Assembly (NCBI GenBank): GCA_010405405.1
Contig: MU004230.1
Coordinates: 3,307,744-3,371,743 of the forward strand
DNA from: Microthyrium microscopicum
Taxonomy: Eukaryota > Ascomycota > Dothideomycetes > Microthyriales > Microthyriaceae
Direction: 5' to 3'
DNA: 64,000 nt
Shown: positions 5,170-47,311 of the stretch, piece after piece
How positions within the stretch are numbered: position 1 is the stretch's first letter
Layout of the letters: each line of letters begins with the position of its first letter
The notes under the pieces: generated by a model
Databases searched by the model: none
What the model was told of the DNA's origin: nothing
Seen by the model: the letters and a program-made list of their open reading frames with translations, nothing else
Program-made: the position numbers and the translations under genes

Positions 5170-7629
5170 AAAGCTCTCCAAGCCAGCTGGGCACGAGAGA
5201 AAGGTAACGATTGCAAGATCAGCTGTTTTTGCCGCTGGATTATTTTAATTTTCTGTTCTTGGTCCACTTTGAGCGTGGGTTGTTTCTCCACTGTGTGTCA
5301 AGAAGCTGTAATGGATTATCGTGAATGGCCCAGAATGGATTAGTTTAGTTTGAGTTTTGTTTTTCTCTCGAGTAATGGTTGTCAGCTTGTCATTCTGCAG
5401 CAGGGGTAGTTTTTTCTAGTTCGATGGAAAATTTTCAGTTGTACGGCATCGCAAAACATGACCAATAAAAGTCTGCTGGTAATACTGAATCCCTGTGTAA
5501 TTCATGGTGAATGGCTTCTTGTGATGCTTGGAGGTTGTCATCAACTTACCATAGTGTCGGATTCGGGACAGGTGTGGTATACCGGAGGTATGGAAGTGAT
5601 ATCAGGATTTTACTTACTCTCATCTGCACTCCTAATTGCATATCGGTATGTCCTGCTGTAAAGAAGTTCGATATGTAGTTTCTCAGCTTTTAGTGCCAAG
5701 CAAAATCATGACCTTTGTTGGAGGCAGAAGAGTTATGCTGTGCAACGAAAACATGTAGAATGTGCGTGAATGCGTTCACTCTTCTGAAGATGGCTGGACC
5801 TTGAAGTCTAGTAGGCTAATACTCCATCCATTGACTAATATTGAGTAATAGCCGACCATAGCATACGCACTTGAGCACGCCCATACGCAAGTTTCCTGGA
5901 TGTATGGAGGAAAGTAGGAAAACAGACACGCGACCGGTTTCCTAAAGTAATAAGCGGGAACGGTGTCGGCATATATCCCTGAGAAAGAAGTTGAAGTCTA
6001 TCGTGAGATACCAATCTCATCCGCGGAGATTTTCCAGTCTACGTCAGACAAGACGGACATAAAAAGCGAATTCGTTCACCTGCAGTACGCAGCGAAATGG
6101 GAACCAGTTGAGAAGATTCTGGTTAGTCAATTGGTATACCGAGTGCCATCCATAAGCCAGGATCTTGTCTTGATGCAGCTCTCTCATTCGAGGAAATACA
6201 AACTTTCATGTAATGTGCGGTTGAAGCCGGTGGCATATGCAAGTCATCGCGGCCGTAGAAGAAGCATTTCTCTGTCTGGAAAAGAATTGCGCAGAAGAAA
6301 AGAGACCAGATGGTGTCCTCGAATCCGCCACATTTCTTCTTTTGTTCAAAAGTGGTGTTCAGCAACCTGGTATTCCCATCGTTCTCGGCGAACTCGGGGC
6401 TGGAGCATGGAGTCATTGGCCAGCTTTTCAAATGTGGGGTATGCAGCTAAATATTTCCGTGCCAAAGGCACTAGACCTTTCGATTCTTGCGGATGTATGG
6501 CGATGAAGCATGCGCACAATGAAGGAAAAACAAGGATGACCTTGCGATAGACTTGATGATTGGGGTCAGAGTTCTATACGTGGCGTGGTTCAGTTCTGAC
6601 GACGCCGCATGCCGTTGAAGCCTTGACGAAGTCTGCAACCTCAGGTGACAAAATGCATCTAAACCTAGCAGGCTTGTACGGCTTGGTAGGCATAGTTAGG
6701 TGCAAAGTGTAAGGTTGAAATGCTGTGAGACCTTAAGGCGAGAGCTTACACCAATCAACTCCAGAGTAGATACTGGACTCTGTAAGTTGAATATTTTTCA
6801 TCGGACGCACATGAGATAGGCCACTTCAAACTTACCCACGTGTCAAGCTCTCTAGCATTGACGGGAAGAAGTAAGTCTGAAGCAAATGCAAGTCCAGTTG
6901 TTCAAATGCAATGGGAGAAAACTTTGCAGCCAAAAAGCACGAAGACGATAGTGTTGATCGCGTAACACACGTGAAAAAACTTGGCCTTTAGGGAGGTAGC
7001 CTCTAGCAACTGGATAGGAGGATCTCCAACATCCCTGGTTTGTTCTGGATGTTCCTGAAGGCGACTGAATTTGCTGCAGTTGAGGTTGATCCCCTTGGCG
7101 TGGAGTGACGACTAATCCACGGATGCCAGAGGTAGAAGTACACGAGAGCAACGGAACGAATCACGGGGCGGTCGAAAGCAGCTGTCTCGGAACCAGTTTT
7201 CCATACAATGTCTTTTCTCTGCAGAATCCAATGCACTTTGGTACTCAATGGAGCCAGCGGCTTTGCCGGTGGACCCGGAGTATCGTGAAGTTTTCTTGAG
7301 TTTTGTCACTAATCCACCGCATCTGCTGTTGTAAGGATCATTTGACCTGCGAAGAACCCAAGGCGTTGTCAAACATAGGGGGTACTGGGACCACGACTGC
7401 CCCTAGATGGCCATGGCCAAGTTGATAGTCCAGCTGATGTTGAAAAGCGGCGGCGACGATAGAGATAGGACAGTTCACCGACAAGTGTATTGAAAAGCGA
7501 TTGGAAGTGTTTGATGGTTGAGAAGGGGTCATTTGACGATGAGGTTGCACAGTAACGAGCCAGTAATATCGATATCGGTGAAGAGTCGATGCTCATTTCA
7601 TCGTTGGTGGCTGTTTTTGGCCACTTGTA
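5170..7629. other. gene-poor stretch with a weak coding trace
   Basis: About 2.5 kb between the tyrosinase and the transposon. A plus-strand trace around 5960-6510 has open frames that could be joined by short introns, with segments such as EKEVEVYREIPIS, VIAAVEEAFLCLEKN and GIPIVLGELGAGAW, but no start, no family and no clean end. It may be a decayed gene. Other open frames near 6850-7600 (minus) look like chance frames. Base composition here is normal, in sharp contrast to the island that begins at 7630. Confidence 0.3.
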
Positions 7630-7841
7630 TGACGCGTAATAGCGGCTAACCTGTTTACATCAGAGAACACCAAAACCAAATCCTGTAACCCCTAAATCTT
7701 AACTACAATTCTAATTTAGTAATGTATTCCCCTATTTATAATAATTTTAAGACCTATTCTAGACTCCCCTTAGTGAGGGCTATCTTTAGAAGGTATTTTT
7801 AAGAAAATTTATTTTTAGTTACGTAGTATTATAAAATATCT
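7630..7841 (+). repeat. left terminal inverted repeat
   Basis: Starts TGACGCGTAATAGCGG right after TA. It aligns without gaps to the reverse complement of 18683-18894 over 212 bp, with about 20 differences, all of them transitions. Similarity stops after ATAAAATATCT. At most differing sites this copy carries T or A where the right copy carries C or G. Confidence 0.9.
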
Positions 7842-8128
7842 AAAACCTTAATACTTTATTATAATATTCTTAGTATATAAGTAACTACTATCTCTATATA
7901 AATAAGAATAGACCTAGTATATAGTAGAGAGTAGTAAAGAATATATTAGGTTTCTAAGCTTAGAAAAAGTAAATACTATATATAGATATAGTTAGTAGGG
8001 TATATACTATATAATATTAGTTTTAATATAATAATAAATTAAAGGGCGCTACGTAATAATATTATATATTCTTTAATAAGTTATTTATAAGAAATTCTTT
8101 TATTTATAGATAGTTTATAAGTTCTTTT

Positions 8129-8214
8129 CCTTTTCTAACCTCTATCTACCTTTCTTTTCCTACCTTTTCTCCCTTTCCTAACCTCTACCTACCTTTCCTT
8201 TCCTACCTTTTTTC
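8129..8214. repeat. 43-bp pyrimidine-rich tandem pair
   Basis: Two adjacent units (8129-8171 and 8172-8214), each built on CCTTTYCTAACCTCTAYCTA followed by a further T/C-rich half. They differ almost only by C/T changes, as expected after RIP of a true duplication. The pair lies near the left end of the element and may be a subterminal motif. Confidence 0.7.
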
Positions 8215-9996
8215 TCTTTCCTTTCTACTTTATTTACTAATAATTCTTTTAGAATGCTTACTTATTATATTAATTTAAAGGAGTATTACCTTAATATTGA
8301 ATATCTTATTAATAATAAGGAGTATATATACTAAGATTTACTTAAGTAGTTAAAAAAATGTTATAATACTAAAGTATCTTTTTTAACCTTACGCTATAAG
8401 ATTAAAGAATAGAAGATTATTATATAAAAACTGCTTAAAATTATAGGAAAACTTAAGAAACTTACTAAATAGCTATTCTATTTTTAGAACTATAATAAAA
8501 AAGAGCTTTATATTTTTCTCTAGGTCTATAGCTATAATATAAAACTATAGATACTTTAGCAACTATATAAGAAACTAGGACTTAAATAGTAAAACCTTTA
8601 TATATCTTAAGAAGAGAGGGAAGTAGTATATGCTAAAGATTTAGTAGTATTTTAAGCTAAACTTAATAGATTATATATTAGTATTAAGAATTATAAATAT
8701 TACCTAATAGCTAATAGGCTACGTAAATAAGGATATAAGGTTTTATAATAAATTCTATAGTAGATTTAGAAGGAAGTAAATCCTAAAGCAGCATAAGCCT
8801 ACTAGAAGTAATCTTATTAAGTATAAGGTAACTATATTGTTAAAGGGCCTAACTAGGTCTAGTTAGTTAATAAGTATAATAAGCTTAAGAATTTTAGAAT
8901 TAAAATATATATATATATTAACGTATTTTCTTAATATATTATTTAGTACTATATTAGTATCTTAAATACTATAAGCGTTAGTACTCTTTACTAATACTTA
9001 GATAATTTGCTTAATATACTAAACCTTATTTAGCCTTAATTTATCTAGTTAGATTATAGAGATAAGATAGTTATAATAGTAGACGCGTATTATAAGCTTA
9101 TAATAGAGAGTTAGTAGCAAGTAATCCTTTTTAAAGATTATTATCTTTATAGAACTAGCATATAGAACTAGTAGATTAAACGTTAGTAAGAGGAACTAAG
9201 TAGTAGAGCGCTTATAGAGTAGAAAGTATAAAAGAATAGTACCTACCTTTATACCTCTTTATAACTAATATTATATTCTTTAGTTATTTTTTAAATCCCT
9301 AGAAGAATAGAGAGCCTACGCAAAGGACAAATATCTAAACTATATAGCTATACTAGCAATCTTTATGCTATACTTATAAATAGTTGTATAGGAATATATT
9401 ACTAACTAGAACTCTTATAAGATTATAAATAATAAAAAGAAAAGGCCTTACGCTATAAATAGAAGACTATACTTCTTTTATATAATAGCTCCTAGTACTA
9501 AATATTAAGGGTTACTAATTGCTAGAGAGCTAGTAGAGGAGAGGAAGTAAGTAGTAAGTAGATAGGATAAGGATGCTTATCTATTAGTAGACATATATAA
9601 GCTATATAATAGTTTCCTTACTTTTATTAATTTTAATCTTAATAAACTTCTTAGTAGAGAATAAGGTAGGCTAGGTAAGCTATTTATTTATATTTATTTC
9701 TAGCTATAATAATTCTTAGAGGTATATAAAGAGTTAGAGATAGAGCTATGCTTAAATTTACTTCCTACTCTAATTAGTAGTAAGTAATTTATTATAAATT
9801 ACCTAAATTATTCTATAGTTATAGTAACTATAAGGATATTATATAATAAGATTAGCACTAAATACTTATTAGCTAAGGAAAGTAGAGAGGCTAGTCTAGC
9901 CTCTAAATTAGAATATAATTTAGACGTATTAGGAGAATTTTAAGGTTCTAATTTAATAAGAATGCCTTAATCTTATATTAGCACTTATAAGGATAT

Positions 9997-10055
9997 ATAA
10001 ATTTTTAATATAATATACTTTAACTATAAATTTTTAATATAATATACTTTAACTA
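9997..10055. repeat. 29-bp tandem duplication inside the element
   Basis: Two nearly identical adjacent copies of an AT-only-like unit containing TTTTTAATATAATATACTTT. It may be a late slippage event, because the copies have not diverged by transitions. Confidence 0.7.
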
Positions 10056-13000
10056 CTTTTTTAAGAATACCCTATAAGGTAAAGTATAACTAATATTTCT
10101 AATAATAAATCTTACTACTTAAGAAATATTTATTATTTTACCTTACTATTATTACTTGCCCTAATAAATATTATCCTATCTTAATAAAATAACTCTATAC
10201 GTTTATTTAATAGCTACTATTATTAAATAGGACCCTAATAGTTAATAGCATAGCCCTACTTATAAACTAGGCTTAATTTTAACTAGCTATTATGAAAAAG
10301 CGCCTCTAGGCATAATAATTAATTATAAATAGAAAACTAAGCTATGCTATTATACCTACTTAAAACTAATAAATATACTTCCTAATATAATAATACTTAT
10401 AGAAAGTGATAAGCTATTTACTATGCCTTACTACTCTAGCGCTAACCTAAGGTAGTATAAAGGGCTATTACTAAAGCCCTATATTATTATAAATCCTTAG
10501 GATATTATTAAGATTAGTGATTCTCTAGTACGTTAATCTTTAGTTAAAATAGAAGAAAATATAGAAGCAAATAGCTATTAACCTTCTTTAGTAAGGGCTC
10601 TTAAAGCTTATACTAATTAGGTAAGATATAATGCTAGAATAGGTAAAGAATTAACTTAGGTAAAGGCTAATTAGGCGGCTACGTTAAGTTTAAAGGACTA
10701 ACTAAAGAAAGGTACGTAATATTATTACGTAAAAAGTATTAAGAAAGATCTAACTAATAAGCTAAAACTAGCCTAACTAAATATTAAATAGTATATTTAG
10801 ATTTTAGTATATATTATAGATTAGGTAATTAATAAAGATAGAGATAAGTCTTTAGAAAAAAAGGTATAAAAGTTTTATAAGTAGGACATTTTGCTAATAA
10901 TATATACTAACTATCTACTAGCGTTTAAGATAACTTGTAGATTTATTACCTATTAACTAATCTAGAACTTTACTAATTTAGTTAAAAAATAAGTTATAAG
11001 ATACTTCTCTTAAGCTATGCTAGAGAAGTATTACGAGCTAGGAAAAAAGCTTGTTTTAGCCTCTTACGTTACTATATCTAAATAGCCTTAGGTTCCCTAA
11101 ATTATTTTAAATAACCCTAATACTAATAAGCTAATATTTACTAATAACTTTATAAAAGCTTCTATAATTAAGTTAAAGAAGGTAGGTAAGGATAAGGTAT
11201 ACTAATAATATATTATTTTTAAAAAAAGATAATTTATAACTCCTAAGCTTAAGTCTATACTATTAATATTAAGAAGCTAATTAATACTAATACTTAGCCT
11301 AAAAAAGGTTATTAAGAAAGATTCGTTTGTTAAAACGGAGGATCTAAAGCCTCTTATAATTAATACTTCTAAATTTAAGAATCTTTAGTTATAGAAATTA
11401 CCTTCTTTAAATAATAATAAGGAGGAGCCTTTATCTAAACCTATAACCCTAGTTATAGAGGACAATAAAGGCTTAGATTATAAGCTTAATAAAGAGGATA
11501 AGGATAATAAAGAAGGTAATAAGGACGATGCTAATACTACTTTTAGAGCTAGTAAAGAGTAGTCTAATGCTAATATTGCTTTTAGAGCTAGAAAAAAGCT
11601 GCTAAAACTACTATATAAGTACGTAGCTTTATTATAGCTAGACCTAGGTAAAGGCTTATGAACCTATATAGTAGTTACTTATAGTAATAATTAGACTAAG
11701 CCTTAGTACTTAGTAAATTAATATATCCTACTAGTATATTTATCTATAGTTAGGCTAAAGGGTAGGCTTAGACTATTTAGTTTTTCTTTAGGGGTTTTAT
11801 ATTAGCTAGTTTTACTCTTTAATGGATAATTCTTTTATATTTATTAGTTTAATACCTACTATTAAGCTTTAGATATCTTTATAAATAACTAATTACTTAT
11901 TTAAGCTACTTATAGTAGGTAGTTATACCTTATTAGCATAATAGGTAATATTAACGTAGGAGCTATTATCTAATAGAGAAGACTATAAATATCTATAGTA
12001 AGCATTCCTATTAATAGCTAGGACTCTTAGTAAGTAGTAAGGCTCTTACTTTCTTATTAATTTATTTTAGATAGTTGTTAAGCCTTTTAAGTAGTATACT
12101 AAGAGCATAGATCTATATAGTAATAGGCTTAGGCGCTTAAGTAAGAAAGTAGATAGTAAATATCCTAGCTTACTTAGGGTACCTTAGTATCTTACTAGTA
12201 GTAATACTATACTAAAGCGTTTGCTATATAATTATCTATTTAGCTAGTTTACGCTATGCTCTATTTATATCTTTATTTACTAACTTATATACTACTCCTT
12301 ATAAATAAATTATAATAAAGAATTTTAGTTTCTTAAATTCTAGCTATAAAATATTAACTTTATACTCTAAGTCTTAACTACTAGTATATGTTTATACATA
12401 AACCTTAAACTTAAATAGAACTAAATCTTAGTAAGGGTATTAGCCTTTCTTAAAATAGGGCTAACTAATTTAATAATATGTTCTTATATAGGGCTACGTA
12501 TATATTATAAAATAATAAGTAACTAGCTTATTAACCTATTATACTCCTTCTTTATTCTACTAAACTAATACCCTTAGAATCCTTAAGTAGTTTATTAACT
12601 TATAAGTTAAATCTAAATAAATATTAGTAAGCATAATAATTAATATAGTTTATTAAGCAAAAGTTATAAAATATAGTATAGAAAACTACTATATAAAGAT
12701 AAAATAGTTAAGAAATAAGCTTAAGGAATTTATATAATATTACTATAAATACCGCTAGAATTAGAACTACTAACTAAAAATTAAATTAATTAAAAGTAGC
12801 ACTAAACTATGAATTTAGAGGCTAAGGAAGTTATTAGTTAAGTATTAATATATTTCTATAAAAGATTAGTTATATTTCTATCTAATACTATTAGCTACTT
12901 ACTAGAATATATAATAATAATTATTAAGCTTTAACTCTAATTTTAATAAACTTTCTTAGGCTACTAGTTTATAGAAGAGTTATAGTCTTATTTAAGATAG

Positions 13001-16000
13001 ATATAATATTAGTTAATAGGAAATAACTTAAGAAGAGTTAATAAAGTTAATTATTAGGCCGCTAGGTACTTAAGAGTAAAGGTAGTAAGCCCTTTAATAT
13101 CTAGACTATATCCTTCTAAGACTCTTTAATTAAGAGTAACTCTATTTTTTTCTTCGTACATAATATAGTTATCTATATCCTTATTATTAAATTTATAATA
13201 GCGCTCTAATAACTTCTTACTATTATACTTACAAAGAGGGTAGCCTTTATTAAAGTTAACTTTCTAAACTAATTACTTATTCTCTCCTTATTCTTTCTTA
13301 ATCTTTACTCTATTTATCTCTTTTAAAGCTCTTAAAGATATATCAATTTTTTTAGCATTATTTAAAATATAAATAGGCTAGTAATGCTCTCTCTATTTAG
13401 TACTATTTATCTAAATAAAGCTTGCCTTAGTCTTACTTATGCTTTTAAGAATTCTTCTTACTTACCTATATAATTTCTATAGTCTACCTTAAAAGCGTAT
13501 TAATAATATTAATACGCCCTTACTTTCTAAAAGATTTAAGTTACTAAACTTAACTAATAAGCCTATTATATTACTATCGTAATCTATATATATTTTTATC
13601 TTCTTTACTTTTAAATGTGCTCTAAAAATATCTAACTTCTCTTTACTATCTATATAGTATTAAAGGTCCTTATAGAAGGGCTCTAGGTAAGATTCTTTAA
13701 TTTAATATTATATTATATTAATTTATATCTAGTTATTAGTATTAAGGATTTAATTAAATCTATAACCCTTAGAGTAAATATTATTAAGATAATATATAGG
13801 ACGAAATAAAGCTTATAAATCCTTAGCTACCCCTTAGTAAACTAAGAGAGTAGCTAGAAACATATAAGCTTTATTTATTTTAAGGACTTTTTAGCTAAAT
13901 CCTTTTATATTAAAATGTCTTATAAAGTAGTAACTTTAACTATAGAGTAAGATCTAGAGAAAGTTATACCTATATTAACTTATAATTTTAATCTATCTTT
14001 CGTCCTAGATAATATACTACTAAAAGGTATACTATACTAAAAGAGGGTTAAAATTAACTTATATATACTTTCCTTAGTATTTTTAAGTCTATATCTTTTA
14101 ATATTAAACCCTAACTGCCTTCTAGATAAATTAAGAGAATAATTAGGATCTAATATAGCTTTAGAGGAGCTAATACCTACCTAAATTAGGATTTTTGTTA
14201 GTCTAATATTAAGTTAGTATTCTTTTTAATAATAAAAGGAAGTAGATAAATTCTTACCTATTAGTTATCTTATTACTAATATATGTTTCTTTTACGTAAA
14301 GCATTGCCTTAATTAATAATATAGTAGGTAGAGATCTAGTACTTTATTAGTATATATATAATTAAGTCCTTAGTAGAGATATACTATTACGTTAGATATA
14401 ACTATCTTTCTAAAAAGAAGCACTATTAGCTATACTTTAATTAATATCTATAATATATACCTAAGTTTATAATTAGCTTTAATCTATTAATATAATACTA
14501 TCCTTATAGATAAAAGACTTCCTAAAAAGATAAAAGAACTAAATATATAATAAGCATCTAGGGTAGGTAAAGTAGTATACTTACTTTACTATCCTAGGTA
14601 TAGTAATAATAAGTAAAAGTAAATATATTAAAAAATAACTACTAAAATAAATAGGGATGCTAAAAGTAATCTCTACTATCTTAAAGTAGATTAGTAGATA
14701 ATAGAGTAAATTTAGGACTTACCTAAAGCATAGGTTATAAGCTTAAATCTAGCAAAGGATAGCTTATAATATACTTTTTATGTTTTTATTTTTATTAGTT
14801 ATAATATATAAAATATAAGCCTACTATTCTATATCCCTAGATATTCTAAATAAACCCTTAGTTTATTCTTAAAGTCACTAATCATTACTAGGTAACGAGG
14901 TAGATAGATATATAAGCCTTATAAGTTAAAAGTTTAACTACTTAGATTTTATAACATCTTTTTATAAATAAGCATAACGATTAGTTAGTAACTACTATAG
15001 CTAGTAATATATTTTTAAATGTTAGCTAACTCTAAGCTACTCTTTTACTACTTAATTATCTAGTATTTAGATATATACTATAGTTGCTACTTCTACTTAC
15101 TAGGGACTAGTACTTTTTAACTTAAAGAGAACGTTACTTAAATAAAGATATTTAGAAGTAGTTAACTAGCCTGCCTCTATATATTAATAAACTAATAATA
15201 ATGTTTATTAATATCTATTTATATTATCTAGTATATATTAATAGAAAGTATATCTTTACCTTTCTCATAATATACTACTAATTATATATTAAGTAATAAA
15301 GTTTCTCTATTTTTTTAGAGGCTTCTATATCTATATTCTTTTAATAATAATATTTACTACTTTAGATTAATAATATATACTAAGATTTCTATCTAAGGAA
15401 AAATTAAGTATATTTAAAGTATAACTACTAGCTAATAAATAATATAGTTAAATTACCTTAATAAGGCTACCTAGAGTCCTTACCTAATAAACTTAACCTT
15501 CTTAGAAAAGATATATACTTTATACTAAAGTAAAGAGTATAACCTCTATTATGTATTAGAGCTAACGTATTAGATATGCTTATTAATACTAGATTAAAGT
15601 AGGATTACTTTTTGTAAATAAGAATACTTTTAGTAAAATTAAGAGCCTATAGTTTATATAGGTTAATAATTCTATAACCTACTTATACTATTTATATTAT
15701 TCCTAATATAGTGCTTATGCTTCTTAAGGATATAGGGTAGCGTATAGAATTATCTCTATATATAATAATAATAAGGCTATAATAATATTAGAAAGTCTTT
15801 AGAGAGCTTAGTTTAAATAAAAATTATAATAGAAAATTATAGTAGTTAGCTTTAGTTTTTAGGTAATCTTTCTTCTAATTGCTAACTTGCTAGTATTTAG
15901 TTTAGATAGTATTTAAATAATATACTAGTTTTTAACTAACTTTCCCCTATATTATAAAATATAAGCTCCTTTAATATATAGAATGACTTAATTACTATAT

Positions 16001-16933
16001 CTTAGACTAGAGTATAACTACTATATAAGCATAATAGGTTATATAGAACTATAGCCTTAGGAGAGTATTATTAATAAAATAAGTAAAGGAAGAATAAGAT
16101 TAGACTTAAAAGGTATACTAGAATTACTTTATTATAACTAGTAAGCCTATCTATAAGATAAAATCTCTAAATAAGAAAGTAATTAGTTATTATTAATAAG
16201 CCTACTATAGATAGTAGTCTATAATAGGCTATAACTAATAAAGGGTAGTAATATTATTTATATTCTATATATAGTGTCTCTAAATAGTAAGTAGTTATAG
16301 TATTTAGTATAACTAAAATACTAATTAATTAATAGTTAAAAACTACTTATATTGCTATGAATTAACCTAGCGCGATGTAATATATTAATATAGAACGTAT
16401 TAACGTTAAAGACGTTAAGACTTTTTTTTAAAAGAAAAAAATTAATATAAAAAATACCTTACTATTTTAATCTTCTCTAGAAAGCGTATTAGAGAAGGGT
16501 AACTAATAAAGTATAATAAGATATCTTTAATAATAAATACTAAAGCATAAATAGTTATAAAGATTATTATAATATTATTGCTTTAAAAGGGTCCTAATAT
16601 TAATTAAGATCTACTAAGATGCCTTTGTAGCAATTTTACTAAGTATTAGTATAAATATACTACTTAATAAGCTTTATTATAGAAAGCTCTACTTACCTAA
16701 GTAATACGTAGTATTAAATAATACTACTTAGTAATAAAAAGGCTTTATAGCTATCCTAGCTAATTAATACCTATATATCTAGAAAAGTAGACTAGGTTAT
16801 AGAGATAGGTTAGACTAGTAATCTCTAATCTCTACTAGTTTTAGCCGCCTTAAAGTTAAGTAATTATTAAATAGTACTTTAAAAAGTAACTATAAGTTAT
16901 TCTTTTTGTTTTACTAAAATATATATATGTAAT

Positions 16934-16997
16934 AAGTAAAATAATATCTTAATCCCTTATGTAACAAGTAAAATAATATCTTAATCTCTTATGTAAG
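16934..16997. repeat. 32-bp tandem pair inside the element
   Basis: Two adjacent 32-bp units, starting AAGTAAAATAATATCTTAAT at 16934 and 16966, differing by a C/T change in the CCCTTATGTAA part and at the final base. Confidence 0.7.
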
Positions 16998-18682
16998 GTA
17001 TCTCTCTACGAAAGGTAGATACTTTAATATATTCTAATAAGTTATTCGTAGAGCGCGTACTATAAGTAAAATACTAAGTATTTTACTATAAGGTATCTTA
17101 CTATACGTATTCTCTTAAGTAGTCCTTAGGGAGGAATAGCATAGTAAGCTTTATAATTAATTTTACGCGCGTAGAAGTATACTACACTAGAGAGTATAAG
17201 ATTAAGAGCAGAAAGAGCCTTTTAGCTAAGAAGGCTTACTCTATAGTAGTAAGATATTATTCCTAAAGTAATACTTACTACTAGATTATTATAGCAAGAC
17301 TACGTAGGTATAAAACTACTATATAGTATAAGCTTAATATTATTATAGATTCTACGTAATTTTTAACGTTACGTATTAAAATTTACTATAATTTTACCCC
17401 TTTTTTTCTATAAAAGAGCTAAAATTGCTAAGTTCCTCTACTTATCTAGCTCTTAATATAGCTATAAAGAAACTTAGTAAGACTTAAGTGCATATATTAC
17501 TTACTATATAAACTAGCTTAGCGCTACTTAGATATAATGGCTAGATTAGAGTTATAGTCTTCTTCTTACTTAATACTAAAAAATCTTACTTTACTAAACC
17601 TTCTTTACTATAATTCTATTACCTAATCGTGTTAGTTATGCTTAATTTAATAAGGAAAGATAAACTTATATATAATTTAGCCTTATAAGATTATTATATA
17701 GTAGCACTAACTATCTTAGCGTTAATCTTATACTATTTTTTTGCTTTTTTTATATTCTTATAGGAATAGTGTTCTATAATAGTAGGCTAGCCTCTTAGAT
17801 ATTTAAGTATAGATATATTTTATAAAATAATTAGTATTTATAAGGAATACTTACGCCTCTAGCGTTAGTAGTTCTACTAATTAGTAAGCTAAATAGTATA
17901 TATAATAGTTTAGTACGCAAGCTAAGGGATATAGGCTTACTAAAACGTAACTTTACCTTATGTAATATAAATAAAGAAGTCTAAAATACTCTATATTAAT
18001 GTCTTAAAGCTTACATAATTATATTAAAAGCTAGAAATTACTTTTAGGGATATAAATTAGTAGTAGAGGAGTATTAGAAAACGTTATAGCTAAAGGAATA
18101 GAAGTTTTTAGCAACTTAGACTTACTAAAAGTTAGTAAAGTAGTTATAAGTAAAAAGAACAACGCGCTAGAATAATATTATTTAGTAAGGGATTACGCCC
18201 TCCTTGCTATTAAGATATAACGCTTAACCTAAAAGGATAATATATAAAGGAATAACTTAAGAACTTATAAAAGAAATAATACCCTAAAAGGGATATTATA
18301 GCTAAGGCTTACCTATAAGCTAATTTAGTAAGGAACTACTACTACTAAGCTTTACTAAACTTTACTATAGTTATAAATCTATAACTTTGCTTTTATCCTT
18401 CTAAGGAAGAAGCCCTATAGTGCTTACCCTAATTAAAACCCTTGCGTAGTATTATTTTATTTATTAAAGCTATTTTAGAGGAGATATTATAAATATAGTC
18501 TTCTTAAAGAATATTTCCTTACTAAATTTAGTAAGCTTCTCTATAAACTAATATCTTTGCTTATAATATATCTTTATAACTATATTAAAATTTATATATA
18601 GCTTACTATACCCTTTTATATAAGCTATAGTATTATATAAGGGTACTGCCTTACTAATAATTAGTAACTTTCTCGCTTTTAA

Positions 18683-18894
18683 AGATATTTTATAGTACTA
18701 CGTAACTAAAAATAAATCTCCTTAAAAATACCTTCTAAAAATAGCCCTTACTAAGGGGAGTCTAGAATAAGTCTCGAAATTATTATAAATAGGGGAATGC
18801 GTCGCTAAATTAGAATTGTGGTTGAGATTTGGGGGTTGTAGGATTTGGTTTTGGTGTTCTCTGATGTGAACAGGTTGGCCGCTATTACGCGTCA
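18683..18894 (-). repeat. right terminal inverted repeat
   Basis: Inverted partner of 7630-7841, ending in TGACGCG on the minus strand next to TA (18895-18896). Its outer 120 bp keep more CA and CG sites than the left copy, so it is the less mutated end. Confidence 0.9.
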
Positions 18895-18896
18895 TA

Positions 18897-20015
18897 ACTT
18901 GTTCCCCCACCCCCACACTAAAGGGAGATGGGTGAATAATTTTTGACCCGCCATCACTTTCATGGAATCGTCCACAGACTCACAGTCCAAGAAGACTCTA
19001 TTTCCGGCCAAGATTGCTTGCGATTGCTGGCCGTCGCTGAAGAGCTTGGGCCGAAGCATCGTTTGATGAGCCACTGCCATCAGCTGCCTCAAGTTCCCGA
19101 ACCCAGACCCACGTCTGCAACATCTCCTGGCTTTCGCCGGCGTCTGGGGAAGAGGTGGGAGTTTAATCAAGCGTAGATGAAGACCTCTAATTATGGACTG
19201 CGACTGGCAGGTCCATCCATGTCCAGCCTCATCAACTGTTCGCATCAACAGTCCAGGCAGCGAAAAGCAACCACAAACCATAAGCTTGAGAAGATGTACC
19301 TGAGGCGTAGCGAAGGCCAAACAAGCTCAACTACAACGAAGATTGATCAGTAGATGTCTAATTCGCTGCAGGTCTCTCCATGATAGGTACTGGTACTTGT
19401 GGCCGTTGCAGCTAAGTCCACGAATGAAGGCATCGGATGCCTCTCCATGCTTCAACGATCCTGTGCCTGACAAGGATGGAGGAGTGATGGCGCGTCCAAG
19501 AAACTTCACAACGCGACCCCCGCAAAAGACCTTTAGTCTGTCAGAATATGAAGACGGTCAAGGGCTTCGCCCTCCGGCCAAGGCCCAAGGCCCACAAAAG
19601 GCTTGCAAGTTTAGTCTGCCCAACGCTGCCTCTGTAATAACAATAACATGGACTTTGGGGAAAAGCATGACGATCCAGGGCCATCTTAATTCTCAAGGTC
19701 TCCCTAGTCTGAAGAGTAGTCTCTCTTAGGGGTCGGGAAGACTTACTCCACTCGTTTGGTCTTCAGGCTGCGTTTGATGCCATTGCTAACACTTGTCACC
19801 TGCGCCCCCACACTTTCCTCCCATCTCACGATGTCATCTTTAATATTTAAACTGCTGCTAATCCCCTTCTTTCCAAAGCATCATTCATAACATTAGTTTC
19901 TTCATTCTACCTTTGTGCCTTGCGTTGTGGTTGTTGCTTTGCTATCCACCCTTTCAGCTTCAGCCCTCTTCAGCCTTGCTCTACCAATTGCACACTTTCT
20001 AAACAACACTTGATC
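18897..20015. other. gene-free flank and aldolase promoter
   Basis: Normal base composition resumes at the TA. I see no supportable gene here. The last part holds the promoter of the following aldolase: an A/T-rich stretch near 19835-19855 (TTTAATATTTAAAC) and pyrimidine-rich leader sequence up to the start codon. Confidence 0.4.
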
Positions 20016-24914: not shown

Positions 24915-27490
24915 TCAACCCAGTGTAGTTTGCATCCCAGATGTCATATCCCATGAAGTGTCGCCAAACGTCAAAGCATCAAAGGATAAATCTCCAATCT
25001 GGAGACCAAGGTCTTGAACCCCTAAATCCTCATTCAAATCAACTCGAATATCAGTCGTAGTGGATGGTAAACCATGAGCCTTTTTGAATAATTCAAGCCA
25101 CTCTGTATTATCGGCGGCTGTTTGGTGCCATGCATCGTCTTCCTCATAGAGAATAAGCCGCGCCTGTCGCTGAAGCATACTGTCATTTGGAAATATTCCA
25201 AGCTGTAGTTGCTCTTTGACATAAGCACCCAGTCGTAGCGTTAAAATCTCCCAACAGGTCGATACTTTCGGAGACCTCTGAGACAGATTGCCATTGATGT
25301 CTAGCGCGGTGGTGTCGGTGAGGAGGTAGTTGTGTCCTTCATTTGAATTGAACGCGAAGCCGGAATTGTCGAATTCCATCTGAGCTGCTGCATTCCAATC
25401 AAACAATGTGTCCATGGCTTGGTCCTCTGTAGTCGGGCCCGCAACGGCACACATTGAAATCGGCTGGTGCTCTAATCCCATAGCCATGGAGAAGTTATTT
25501 ACAGCGCTGAATGGATTTAGGCTGTTGGATTCGTTGCCTATGAGGAAAGGGGGCATGGCGTTAGTTACCAGATTGGCGACCTCAGTGTCGAGGCCACGGC
25601 AGCCTTTCCAGTCTTTCATTCTGGCGCCCTCTTTGTAGTGCTTTGCGATATGATCACATCGTACTTTCCATGATGTGAACTTCTCGTTACAGAATCCGCA
25701 GCGCGATTTGATGTAGTTTGGTTCAGATTTCCAGGTCTCCATGCTTTTGATGAGTTCGCATCCATGGACTAGACGGAGGTGTTGTCGGAGGTGATCTTTT
25801 CGGTAGAATGTTCGTGCGGACATTCCTTTGCTTTCGCAAGTGTCGTGGCTGTGAGTTTCAAGATGTTCTTTTGATGGGTTTTCTTGCTCACAGTATGTGC
25901 ATGTCCTGAGCCCAGTTTTGGGGTTGTTGATGACATCGCCGAGAGGAGCACATATCCACTTCTCTAAATTTAGATGAAGACTCTTCTCGTGCCGAGTCCA
26001 ATCGAATTTTGTGCGAAATGTGTCGGTGCAGAAGGTGCATTGAAATGGTCTGGCTTCAGCCTGCTCTTTCCGGTTTGAGGAAGCGATGACCCTCTTCCTC
26101 CTGCGTCGGTCTTTTCGGTGGCCACTGCCATAGGAAAGAAGAGAGTTTCGTGAGCCATGAGATCGCGAAGAGCCCAATGATCGATTTGAGTGAGAGCCAC
26201 TGGAGTGACGGGAGTCGGACTTTCCAGTGCCGTGAGAAGAGATAGAGGGACATCGGTATTTGGTCTCAAGAGAAGATACAGATGGAACACGATGAAGAAG
26301 TGAGCCTGATCCACTAGACTCCACAAGGTTATTTCTGCTATGACTTCGAGACAGGCTTGATCCCGCCGAATCAATACGGCTGTTGGCCACGGCGTGGACG
26401 ATAGCCGGAATTGCGGCAGGTTCGTTTTCTGGTGGAGAGACCTTCCAACGTTCGAGAGGATCCATGATATCCCAAGTCTTTCCGTTATACACGCCTCTTT
26501 TATGTTCTGGGATGGCGATAGCCTCGCTGCCACCAGTACTGGTCGGCCATACTGGTGACCGTATACTGGGAGAGACTCCACGGATAGATTTGCGCTTGTT
26601 TCGGCGCCGTGTGTTTGCAAACCAATTCGATACTTGGCTGGCTGATAGGCCAGTACGAGTTCCTAACTCTTCTTTCTCCTCCTCAGATGGATATGGATTG
26701 TCAGAATGGGCATCGATCCAGCCTTTCAGCGTTTTGATTGCCTCCTTTGAAAATCTGGTACCAGTGCTTCTTCGACTAGGTCTATCATCTTCTTTCAGTT
26801 GTGGATGATCCATGGCTGATCGATCCCAACATCGCAGTGCTATGGCTCCAGTGAGCTCGCCGGAATCTTGCACAGTATCCTCATGCACGACGTGTAATGT
26901 GTCCATGAGAACCGGGAGGTGGTTTTCTACCGTAAAAGAGCAAGGACGGAACAAGGCACTTTGGGGAGTCAGCCTAATCGCATTGTAGTTGTTGGGTAAG
27001 TAGCACAAGGTTTGATCGATGTCATCAAGTGTCACCATGACTCTTACATGATTGATCAAATCTAAGGCTTGAAGAGGAAACTTACCAGCAAGCCGAACAT
27101 CCCGTTTGATTCTCATAGGTATACCAACACTCTAGTCCCCTGGACCGGCAATACTCGCAGGCCTTTTCTGGTAACTCATATCTTGGAATCCACTTGGCGA
27201 AGTTACCATAGTCAAGGGTTTCGGGATCTGCTGCTTCTTGGGAGATACCGAAATCATTGATAATGATTGCAGGTGTAAGGCCTCTTTGATCAGGTCAATA
27301 TTTGATTGCAATTGCGTTCAGCTGGTACGTACTCTGTTGTTACAGCTAACTGCTCCGAGCCTAGGGGACCGGAAACTGGCAAATCAAACATCTCCAGATC
27401 CCCAGGCATAACCAAATTGTTATCCGTATAACCAGCAGCTCCAAAGTCAAGGAACTCGTCCATGCCCGTGGATACAGGATACGACTCCAT
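24915..27490 (-). CDS. homeodomain plus C2H2 zinc-finger transcription factor
   Basis: Nuclear DNA-binding regulator of 799 residues. Exons 27333-27490, 27086-27283 and 24915-26958; introns 49 and 127 bp. Exon 2 holds a Cys-rich motif (CEYCRSRGLECW...GCSAC), completed across intron 2 as CALFRPCSFT; this module is typical of this fungal family. A TALE/KN-like homeodomain lies at about 182-242 (NPYPSEEEKEEL, SNWFANTRRR). A Ser/Arg-rich linker follows, then C2H2-type fingers at about 426-447 (CTFC...H...H), 474-495 and 530-550. The C-terminal 200 residues are acidic and likely activating. The longer open frame from 27116 reads through intron 2 and is not the true N-terminus. Target genes unknown; it sits between two aldolase genes. 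Confidence 0.87.
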
Positions 27491-45922: not shown

Positions 45923-47311
45923 ATGACCGACTCGAATGATCTCCACGAATTCTATCTGGATGTCCTTGGACAACAGCCATTGATGAAAATATATACACAA
46001 ATCTGCTTTTGTTATGCAGTCCCGGAAAATGACTTACGAGAACAGATCCTCGATACACTGAATGCTGGGCTCCTTAAGTTGTCAACATCATTTCCCTGGA
46101 TCGCTGGCCAAGTTATCAGCGATGAGCCGATTTCAGGAGAGACATTTAGTTTCAAAATCGTACCTTTGGAAAAGACTCCTCGTTTGGTTGTACGATATTT
46201 CGACGACGACAACCGAGTACCGAACTATCAGAATCTGAGAGAGGCCAATTACCCTTTCAGGATGCTTGATGAGTCTCTCATCGCTCCTAGAAACACACTA
46301 CCAGGTCTCCCAGGAAGTTCCAACGAAGATATAGCACCGGTGTTGCTTCTCCAAGCCAACTTCATCACTGGTGGTTTAATTCTCACATTCGCTGCTCATC
46401 ACAGTGCAATGGATATGACAGGTCAAGGGCAGATCATGACTCTCTTATCCAAGGCATGCCATAATGAGCCATTTTCCCCCGAGGACCTAGCGTCTGGCAA
46501 CCTAGACCGACGCCATGCTATATCTTTCCTCGAGAATTATACACCAGGTCCAGAGATACAAGACCAAGTTCCATCTCCATCTCCAAAAACGCCCGCTGAA
46601 ATCCCCAAGAGCGAAACCACACCAAATGACCCTCCAAAACTCACTTGGGCATACTTCTCCTTTCCAGCAACTTCACTATCCGATATCAAAAAGGTAGCCT
46701 CCAGCACCATTGCCAGCCCAGCCTTCATATCAACCGACGACGCTCTTACAGCACTGATCTGGCAGTCCGTAACTCGCATACGCCAACCACGGCTCAAAAC
46801 AAACGAGACATGCCGCTTTGCGCGCGCAGTCGATGTCCGCTCAGCACTAAACATCTCACCAACTTACACCGGTTTCCTACAAAACATGACTTTCCATTCC
46901 TATCCCATCCAGAGACTCACCTCCGATCCGCTCGGCGACGTGGCCTTGAACTTCCGCGCTCGGTTGGATCCCAAGGAATTAGCATTTCGAACTCGGGCAC
47001 TGGCGACGTTCTTTAAACAGGCGGATGATAAGAGCATCGCTATCGATTTCACGGCTGGTATGGATCTGTCGAAGGATATCATGCTTAGCTCGTGGGTAAA
47101 GCCTAATTGCTATGAGTTGGATTTTGGCCTGGGCTTGGGAACGCCAGAATCGGTACGGAGACCGCAGTTTACAACGGTGGAGAGCTTGTTTTATTTGATG
47201 CCGAAGAGGCTGGATGGGGAAGTTTCTGCGGCGTTGTGTTTGAGGGAGGAGGATTTGTGGCGGTTGAAGAAGGATGAGGAGTTTATGAAATACTGTCAGT
47301 ATGTTGGTTGA
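45923..47311 (+). CDS. BAHD-type acyltransferase
   Basis: Single-exon, 462-residue acyl-CoA-dependent O- or N-acyltransferase of the transferase family (PF02458-like). The catalytic HxxxD motif is AAHHSAMD (H160, D164), in the usual place about one third in. The C-terminal structural DFGWG motif appears as ELDFGLGLG. Other family traits are the N-terminal PWIAGQV segment and DDALTALIWQS in the middle. In fungi such enzymes acetylate or acylate secondary metabolites, including in self-protection. The acceptor here is unknown. It is divergently paired with a siderophore-type transporter, so modification of an exported or imported metabolite is a possibility (inference). Confidence 0.87.
   Translation: MTDSNDLHEFYLDVLGQQPLMKIYTQICFCYAVPENDLREQILDTLNAGLLKLSTSFPWIAGQVISDEPISGETFSFKIVPLEKTPRLVVRYFDDDNRVPNYQNLREANYPFRMLDESLIAPRNTLPGLPGSSNEDIAPVLLLQANFITGGLILTFAAHHSAMDMTGQGQIMTLLSKACHNEPFSPEDLASGNLDRRHAISFLENYTPGPEIQDQVPSPSPKTPAEIPKSETTPNDPPKLTWAYFSFPATSLSDIKKVASSTIASPAFISTDDALTALIWQSVTRIRQPRLKTNETCRFARAVDVRSALNISPTYTGFLQNMTFHSYPIQRLTSDPLGDVALNFRARLDPKELAFRTRALATFFKQADDKSIAIDFTAGMDLSKDIMLSSWVKPNCYELDFGLGLGTPESVRRPQFTTVESLFYLMPKRLDGEVSAALCLREEDLWRLKKDEEFMKYCQYVG

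Follow-up and report, generated by a model that had tools for sequence, protein, structure and literature searches.

The window analysed here, a 64,000-nucleotide stretch of contig MU004230.1 of the ascomycete Microthyrium microscopicum (assembly GCA_010405405.1, positions 3,307,744 to 3,371,743), contains an 11,269-bp element bounded by long terminal inverted repeats (TIRs). It belongs to one of three long-diverged transposon chassis, subfamilies A, B and C, that carry an almost identical interior of about 5.5 kb. We consider it very likely that the element is a dead cut-and-paste transposon of the IS3EU type, that its interior was exchanged or homogenised between chassis, and that the long copies were then mutated by repeat-induced point mutation (RIP). 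A single genome was analysed (36.9 Mb, 20 contigs). Positions are those of the window unless a contig is named. The element and its main parts are as follows.

7628..18896, no strand assigned: whole element (subfamily A), TATGACG...CGTCATA, 11,269 bp; from the inverted arms, the flanks, a second copy at 90% and an exact terminus search
7628..7841, plus strand: left TIR, 214 bp; inverted-repeat search
18683..18896, minus strand: right TIR, 214 bp, 91% complementary to the left; inverted-repeat search
7623..7627, no strand assigned: target duplication ACTTG, left copy; flank reading
18897..18901, no strand assigned: target duplication ACTTG, right copy; flank reading
7628..12450, no strand assigned: subfamily-specific left module (TIR, transposase, further sequence); matched throughout only by the second A copy
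13050..18600, no strand assigned: shared interior (core), with little difference between A, B and C; transversion counts and bins

The two TIR arms are separated by 10,841 nt and form the longest of the 14 inverted pairs in 7000–19500; the runner-up measures just 41 nt at 71%. The original prediction described inverted ends of 212 bp, limits at 7630 and 18894, and TA as the flank on both sides. The inverted repeats are real, with their length corrected to 214 bp and their ends to 7628 and 18896. Both element ends read TATGACGCGTAATAGCGGC. TA opens and closes the element itself, as it does in its relatives, and belongs to the terminus; the duplication is ACTTG (5/5 positions), outside it. The element spans 7628–18896 and duplicates 5–6 bp, not TA. 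That it is a single large TIR-bounded DNA transposon, as had been proposed, is borne out; a genome search recovered a second full A copy (C5:1793204-1804427, 90% identity over the full length). A 70-bp solo fragment of an A-type end was also seen at C10:122212 in surroundings of ordinary G+C; it is perhaps the footprint of a lost copy.

The shared interior was recognised from transversion counts. Between subfamilies, the core differs by 0.25–0.38% transversions (A-B 21/5,536; A-C 14/5,542; B-C 21/5,601), and the transposase by 12–15% (47/382, 55/376, 83/601), a lower bound, as only the best local alignment was counted; both comparisons used one representative per subfamily. Within subfamilies, the left modules differ by 0.20–0.24% (A1-A2 9/4,412; B 47/19,928; C 32/13,963, the B and C figures being pairwise and limited to the 1.4 kb beside the junction). 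Because the divergence of the core between subfamilies is about that of the left modules within them, the interior thus appears to have become common to the chassis at about the time when each last spread. The left limit of similarity lies at about 12.45 kb for A-B and 13.05 kb for A-C, and the right limit at 18.60–18.65 kb. These staggered limits favour recombination or conversion over the insertion of a discrete element.

In the history that we propose, the transposase would have recognised the ends peculiar to its subfamily, excised the 11-kb element and inserted it at a staggered break of 5–6 bp. The interior would have been exchanged or homogenised between chassis shortly before the last transposition burst, most likely by recombination or by gap repair templated on a copy of another subfamily, since identity begins and stops at different points in different pairs. 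RIP would later have mutated every long copy but spared most of those of about 0.6 kb. A composite origin, with the core as an independent mobile element or repeat inserted into the transposon or with the two TIRs derived from different elements, is unlikely. It would fit the occurrence of the core outside transposons, near contig ends, and the change of its left neighbour with subfamily. It is at odds with core limits that vary by pair (12.45 or 13.05 kb; 18.60 or 18.65 kb) and give no single fixed insertion point, with the mutual match of the TIR arms in A1 and the direct duplication associated with them, and with contig-end copies that begin at 14066 and not at the transposon limits. The long B and C copies, too, hold the core and matching ends together as units of about 11.3–11.7 kb.

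A more serious competitor, to which we give rather less than even chances, is that the chassis have carried the core since they diverged and that continual gene conversion among the copies, including those at chromosome ends, kept it alike. Five contig-end copies and at least 15 internal places would supply many templates, and the left-side limits of identity are gradual. Against it, the core between subfamilies is no more diverged than the left modules within them, a pattern for which one recent event is the simpler explanation.

Beneath the mutations, we find the remnant of an integrase-type DDE transposase (rva_4) in A, B and C. The remnant was located by RIP-aware scoring, in which the six frames of the unaltered DNA are compared with a protein reference and a T or A may be read, at some cost in score, as an original C or G. 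The reference is a fungal integrase-core protein, which Pfam assigns to rva_4 (PF24764) at 94.5 bits. We take rva_4 to cover IS3EU transposases. The predicted features in the window are these.

8248..9252, plus strand: RIP-mutated transposase, first segment, integrase core (best match 8860-9225); RIP-aware score, codon phase of A-B transversions, indels
9281..9850, plus strand: transposase, second segment, in another frame (best match 9287-9607); RIP-aware score 78.5
8920..8922, plus strand: expected first catalytic D, now AAC (N); RIP-aware alignment
9052..9054, plus strand: expected second catalytic D, GAT (D); RIP-aware alignment
9178..9180, plus strand: expected catalytic E, now AAA (K); RIP-aware alignment

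The first segment scores 216.5 at 8860–9225 and the second 78.5 at 9287–9607, and 60 shuffled references reached a maximum of 50.5 over all frames (mean 44.1). The corresponding scores are 228.5 and 117.0 in subfamily B and 206.5 and 119.5 in subfamily C; the shuffled backgrounds are those of the window. As a positive control, a Copia reference scored 323 against a mutated Copia-type copy. The region at 8.25–9.25 kb is conserved between A and B. Their fixed transversions at 8550–9299 fall 71/40/36 by codon phase, and their indels at 8418–9254 are multiples of three or cancel one another. The catalytic positions in a C copy (L076) read N, D and E, the third codon being GAA. The frame change between the two segments may be an intron or an indel. 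A low stop count is confined to the second segment.

The best placement of the element is the IS3EU superfamily, not Tc1/mariner, to judge from the termini, the duplication length and the type of transposase. Complete IS3EU families have TA..TA termini and duplications that are usually of 6 bp (PMC10045372, as far as the text available to us goes). Termini of this kind are found in A (TATGACG..CGTCATA), in B and C (TATGACGG..) and in E (TACGG..CCGTA), where E is a further type introduced below. Duplications of 5–7 bp were found in 24/25 insertions of types B, C and E. For type C the length is 5 bp in 16/17 (11/12 short, 5/5 long elements), for type B 6–7 bp in 7/7 (2 short, 5 long), and for type E 6 bp (CCAACC, 6/6 positions). 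A script scored the 6-bp duplications, and those of 5 and 7 bp were picked out by inspection of the flanks. The duplication of element L049 is 7/7 inside a G run, but 4/6 if taken as a 6-mer.

The same data bear on two other superfamilies. An oversized Tc1/mariner or pogo/Fot element with a TA duplication, the comparison that TA had suggested, is barely credible and stands refuted by the duplications. TA does adjoin the ends first proposed for the element. It is part of the terminus, however, and duplications of 5–7 bp lie outside it in 24 of those 25 insertions and in the window. The sole Tc1-type reference scored, a Pfam-checked DDE_1 (pogo/Fot-type) protein, reached 39.0, below the maximum of 46.5 in 20 shuffles. 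A Maverick/Polinton-type element would also have long TIRs and 6-bp duplications such as those of types B and E. This, too, is very improbable, given the 5-bp duplications of type C, the transposase of rva_4 type and the termini, which are TA..TA here. Polinton ends are AG..CT.

Several points weigh against the IS3EU-type reading and the exchange of its interior. The placement rests on termini, duplication length and transposase type, not on a tree, and duplications in type C and in the window are 5 bp where those of IS3EU are usually 6 (type B has 6–7, type E 6). The flanks of the second A copy, CCCGTC/CCCGTT, give an imperfect duplication (5/6), and one C-type short element (L050) has none. 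The assignment of the transposase depends on one scoring scheme and one reference. Six-frame Pfam scans of the element with stops as X returned no family in any of the six frames, and neither did Pfam on seven transposase-segment proteins with X. With stops read as Q/W, rva_4 was absent from the seven proteins; a profile of the seven RIP-mutated translations had no hits in the PDB; and PF24764 was not found in raw frames genome-wide, in a search whose E. coli control matched only below the cut-off. Stops in the matched frame at 8400–9150 are as common as in the other frames (0.098–0.171 per codon). The core itself is uneven, with 4–13 fixed transversions per 499–500 bp between pairs in the bin at 17.25–17.75 kb and 0–6 per 500 in the bin at 13.75–14.25 kb. 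Either gene conversion or a one-time transfer of the core would fit.

The same scans gave some further matches. In the stops-as-Q/W set, Clr5 reached 13.8 bits (cut-off 22.3) on the N-terminal side of one protein, and Adeno_terminal reached 14.5 bits (cut-off 27) in another; the latter, below its cut-off, was taken as chance. Among raw frames genome-wide, PF02816 had no match, a result that is uninformative because the control genomes were silent too. PF00665 occurred at five places; of the two inspected, one is a Gypsy-type element and one a mutated Copia-type copy.

Large fungal transposons of related kinds are known, and we compared the element with the available parts of their descriptions. 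The IS3EU elements of rusts and Tuber indicum that carry TET genes share TA..TA termini, and the E ends (TACGG..CCGTA) fit the TAYGG..CCRTA of the rust families; they also share the 6-bp duplications seen in B and E, and theirs hold extra genes beside the transposase (PMC12730594). The rust families are reported to have an alpha-kinase gene (PMC12730594); in the present elements the alpha-kinase reference finds nothing (at low power), and the duplications of type C measure 5 bp. An interior common to diverged chassis and chromosome ends, as found here, is not described for rust IS3EU in the available text of that source (PMC12730594). Styx of Zymoseptoria is likewise an ascomycete IS3EU-like element with 6-bp duplications, an integrase-type transposase and several open reading frames (ORFs). 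It measures 7,927 bp, with a 36-bp TIR, intact copies and four ORFs, whereas the present elements are of about 11.3 kb, with a 214-bp TIR in A, and the long copies examined are all heavily mutated (PMC10853768). Sly1-1 of Neurospora crassa, a TIR-bearing DNA transposon, has sister copies mutated by RIP and one gene in addition to that for its transposase, which is of CMC type, in contrast to the integrase type here (PMC4592977). As Sly1-1 has 11,534 bp, large size alone is not novel (PMC4592977). The proposal of an undescribed large transposon thus needs narrowing: IS3EU is known, also in fungi (PMC12730594, PMC10853768). Literature searches made without Repbase and subscription papers did not turn up the family or its shared interior. 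We file the element as a putative new IS3EU-type family of about 11 kb, of which the shared interior would be the unusual part.

A search for the B/C-type terminus (up to 3 mismatches) found 57 places in the genome, and none for the pattern read backwards. These make up 14 short pairs (553–1,192 bp), 10 long pairs and 9 single ends. Stretches of 4 kb or more from the right half of the element occur at 15 or more places, counting the window. Typed by the stretch left of the junction, they comprise A (2), B (6) and C (5), plus D and E, which match no other; D is known by its core only and E by its ends and core. A, B and C each have a left module and a right terminus of their own. For window positions 8200–13500, among 33 matching places, only the window and C5:1.80 Mb match throughout. 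Two arrangements on C5 are more complex. B-type ends 55.6 kb apart (C5:2106964-2162539) have a perfect CACAGC duplication and apparently belong to one element split by about 47 kb of later insertions. The ends of the E element (C5 2514979 to about 2541800) are about 27 kb apart, and its core is interrupted near the equivalent of window position 14.60 kb.

The whole element shows near-saturated RIP, since CA and TG are nearly gone and the differences between copies are mostly transitions. The claim that an AT-rich interior of 11 kb had been mutated by RIP is upheld by a G+C content of 21–26% in the ten 1-kb bins of 8001–18000, against 42–55% elsewhere in the window (two edge-straddling bins left aside). 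The ratio (CA+TG)/(AC+GT) is 0.00–0.33 in 36/37 bins of 300 bp and 0.52 in the final bin; TpA/ApT across the element bins is 1.39–2.13. Fifteen of the 17 other stretches compared with the right half (at least 1,960 sites each) differ from it at 8.6–11.6% of sites, with transitions making up 80–96% of the differences. The two short comparisons (600 and 301 sites) show 10.7% and 13.0% differing sites, of which 86% and 72% are transitions. No ORF of 50 or more residues lies wholly within 7630–18894, so the reported lack of 60-residue frames is true of the interior; two others, of 64 and 142 aa, cross the right edge and continue beyond it. Background on the reversal of RIP is found in PMC3017866, in the part available.

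Twelve of the 14 short elements with B- or C-type ends keep (CA+TG)/(AC+GT) above 1.0 and escaped RIP. The six that were compared with long copies have only the terminal 40–84 bp in common with them, and aligned pairs among the 14 are 72–92% identical (29 pairs listed); such ends would therefore have been mobilised apart from the long copies. A Gypsy-type retroelement, L040, at C6:2134500-2142500 has long open frames (416, 747 and 275 aa) and was apparently spared by RIP while long DNA transposons were saturated.

Parts of the core also lie toward contig ends, as genome matches indicate.

14066..18605, no strand assigned: section of the core that recurs toward five contig ends; genome matches
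18503..18605, no strand assigned: one copy of the unit of about 94 bp that forms tandem arrays beside the contig-end copies; genome matches

The contig-end pieces, all within 14066–18605, occupy the beginning of C12 and the extreme end of C11; in C14 and C16 they are no more than about 12 kb from the end, and in C4 they are 49–56 kb from its start. They adjoin arrays of the roughly 94-bp unit, which the window holds once, and the 14066 side faces the contig end in 5/5. An additional core copy is internal to C4, at 1.73 Mb. Telomere repeats (CCCTAA) were seen at C12 only among the five ends. There (C12, 1–7000), arrays of the 94-bp unit come straight after them, together with two core pieces of 1.48 kb, in a higher-order subtelomeric repeat. 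At 16.97–18.6 kb, the end copies match the window at 82–84%, with many small indels and only 22 fixed transversions in 1,629 columns. We regard it as a tentative idea, with the odds against it, that the interior is subtelomeric DNA, or a gene derived from such DNA, picked up and traded by several diverged chassis, with the chromosome ends as a reservoir and the transposons carrying it round the genome or seeding the ends. It would then be a cargo module that passes from one transposon family to another by recombination.

As for the content of the right half, captured cargo is a fair guess. Read-through Pfam scans of the B-type copy on C7 gave only matches below cut-off: DUF1803 (14.6 bits), CjCas9_PI_CTD (13.2 bits) and DUF2812 (20.7 bits). 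The DUF2812 match (E 0.0005, cut-off 27.8) lies by reckoning on the minus strand near window position 13.6–13.8 kb. When ten other references were scored in the window, 9/10 did not rise above the best of their 12 or 20 shuffles (Gypsy pol, at 49.0, only equalled it). The Gypsy integrase of L040 scored 51.5 against a best of 50.0 in 12 shuffles, and 40.5 in B; it was taken as noise. For the idea that the core is a telomere-linked RecQ helicase repeat, two references were scored in the window: RecQ, not vetted by Pfam, gave 44.5 (best of 12 shuffles 46.0), and TLH gave 43.0 (best shuffle 53.0). The eEF2K alpha-kinase reference scored 39.0 in the window and in B, with 12 shuffles up to 55.5, a test of low power that a distant fungal kinase could escape. 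No frame in the core stood out convincingly by stop density, by codon phase or by unresolved stops. A second gene at 11.1–11.6 kb is possible.

Two ORFs elsewhere in the window were also observed. At 45923–47311 (plus strand), a 462-aa ORF has the Pfam domains TRI-like_N and Transferase and scores 457 bits to the structure of trichothecene 3-O-acetyltransferase (2zba). At 24915–27116 (minus strand), a 733-aa ORF has a homeobox KN domain, a weak C2H2 finger and a DNA-binding domain of Tc5-transposase type; it is perhaps a transcription factor with a transposase-derived part.

A RIP-saturated element that lacks an internal 50-residue frame can thus still be assigned, with no mending of the sequence, through scoring that allows RIP reversals. 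The case shows mosaic evolution, in which old and diverged transposition machinery surrounds a young shared interior that is also found near chromosome ends. If the interior is functional, the exchange between chassis would be a route for the spread of genes between transposon families, such as that reported for TET/JBP genes (PMC12730594, in its available part).

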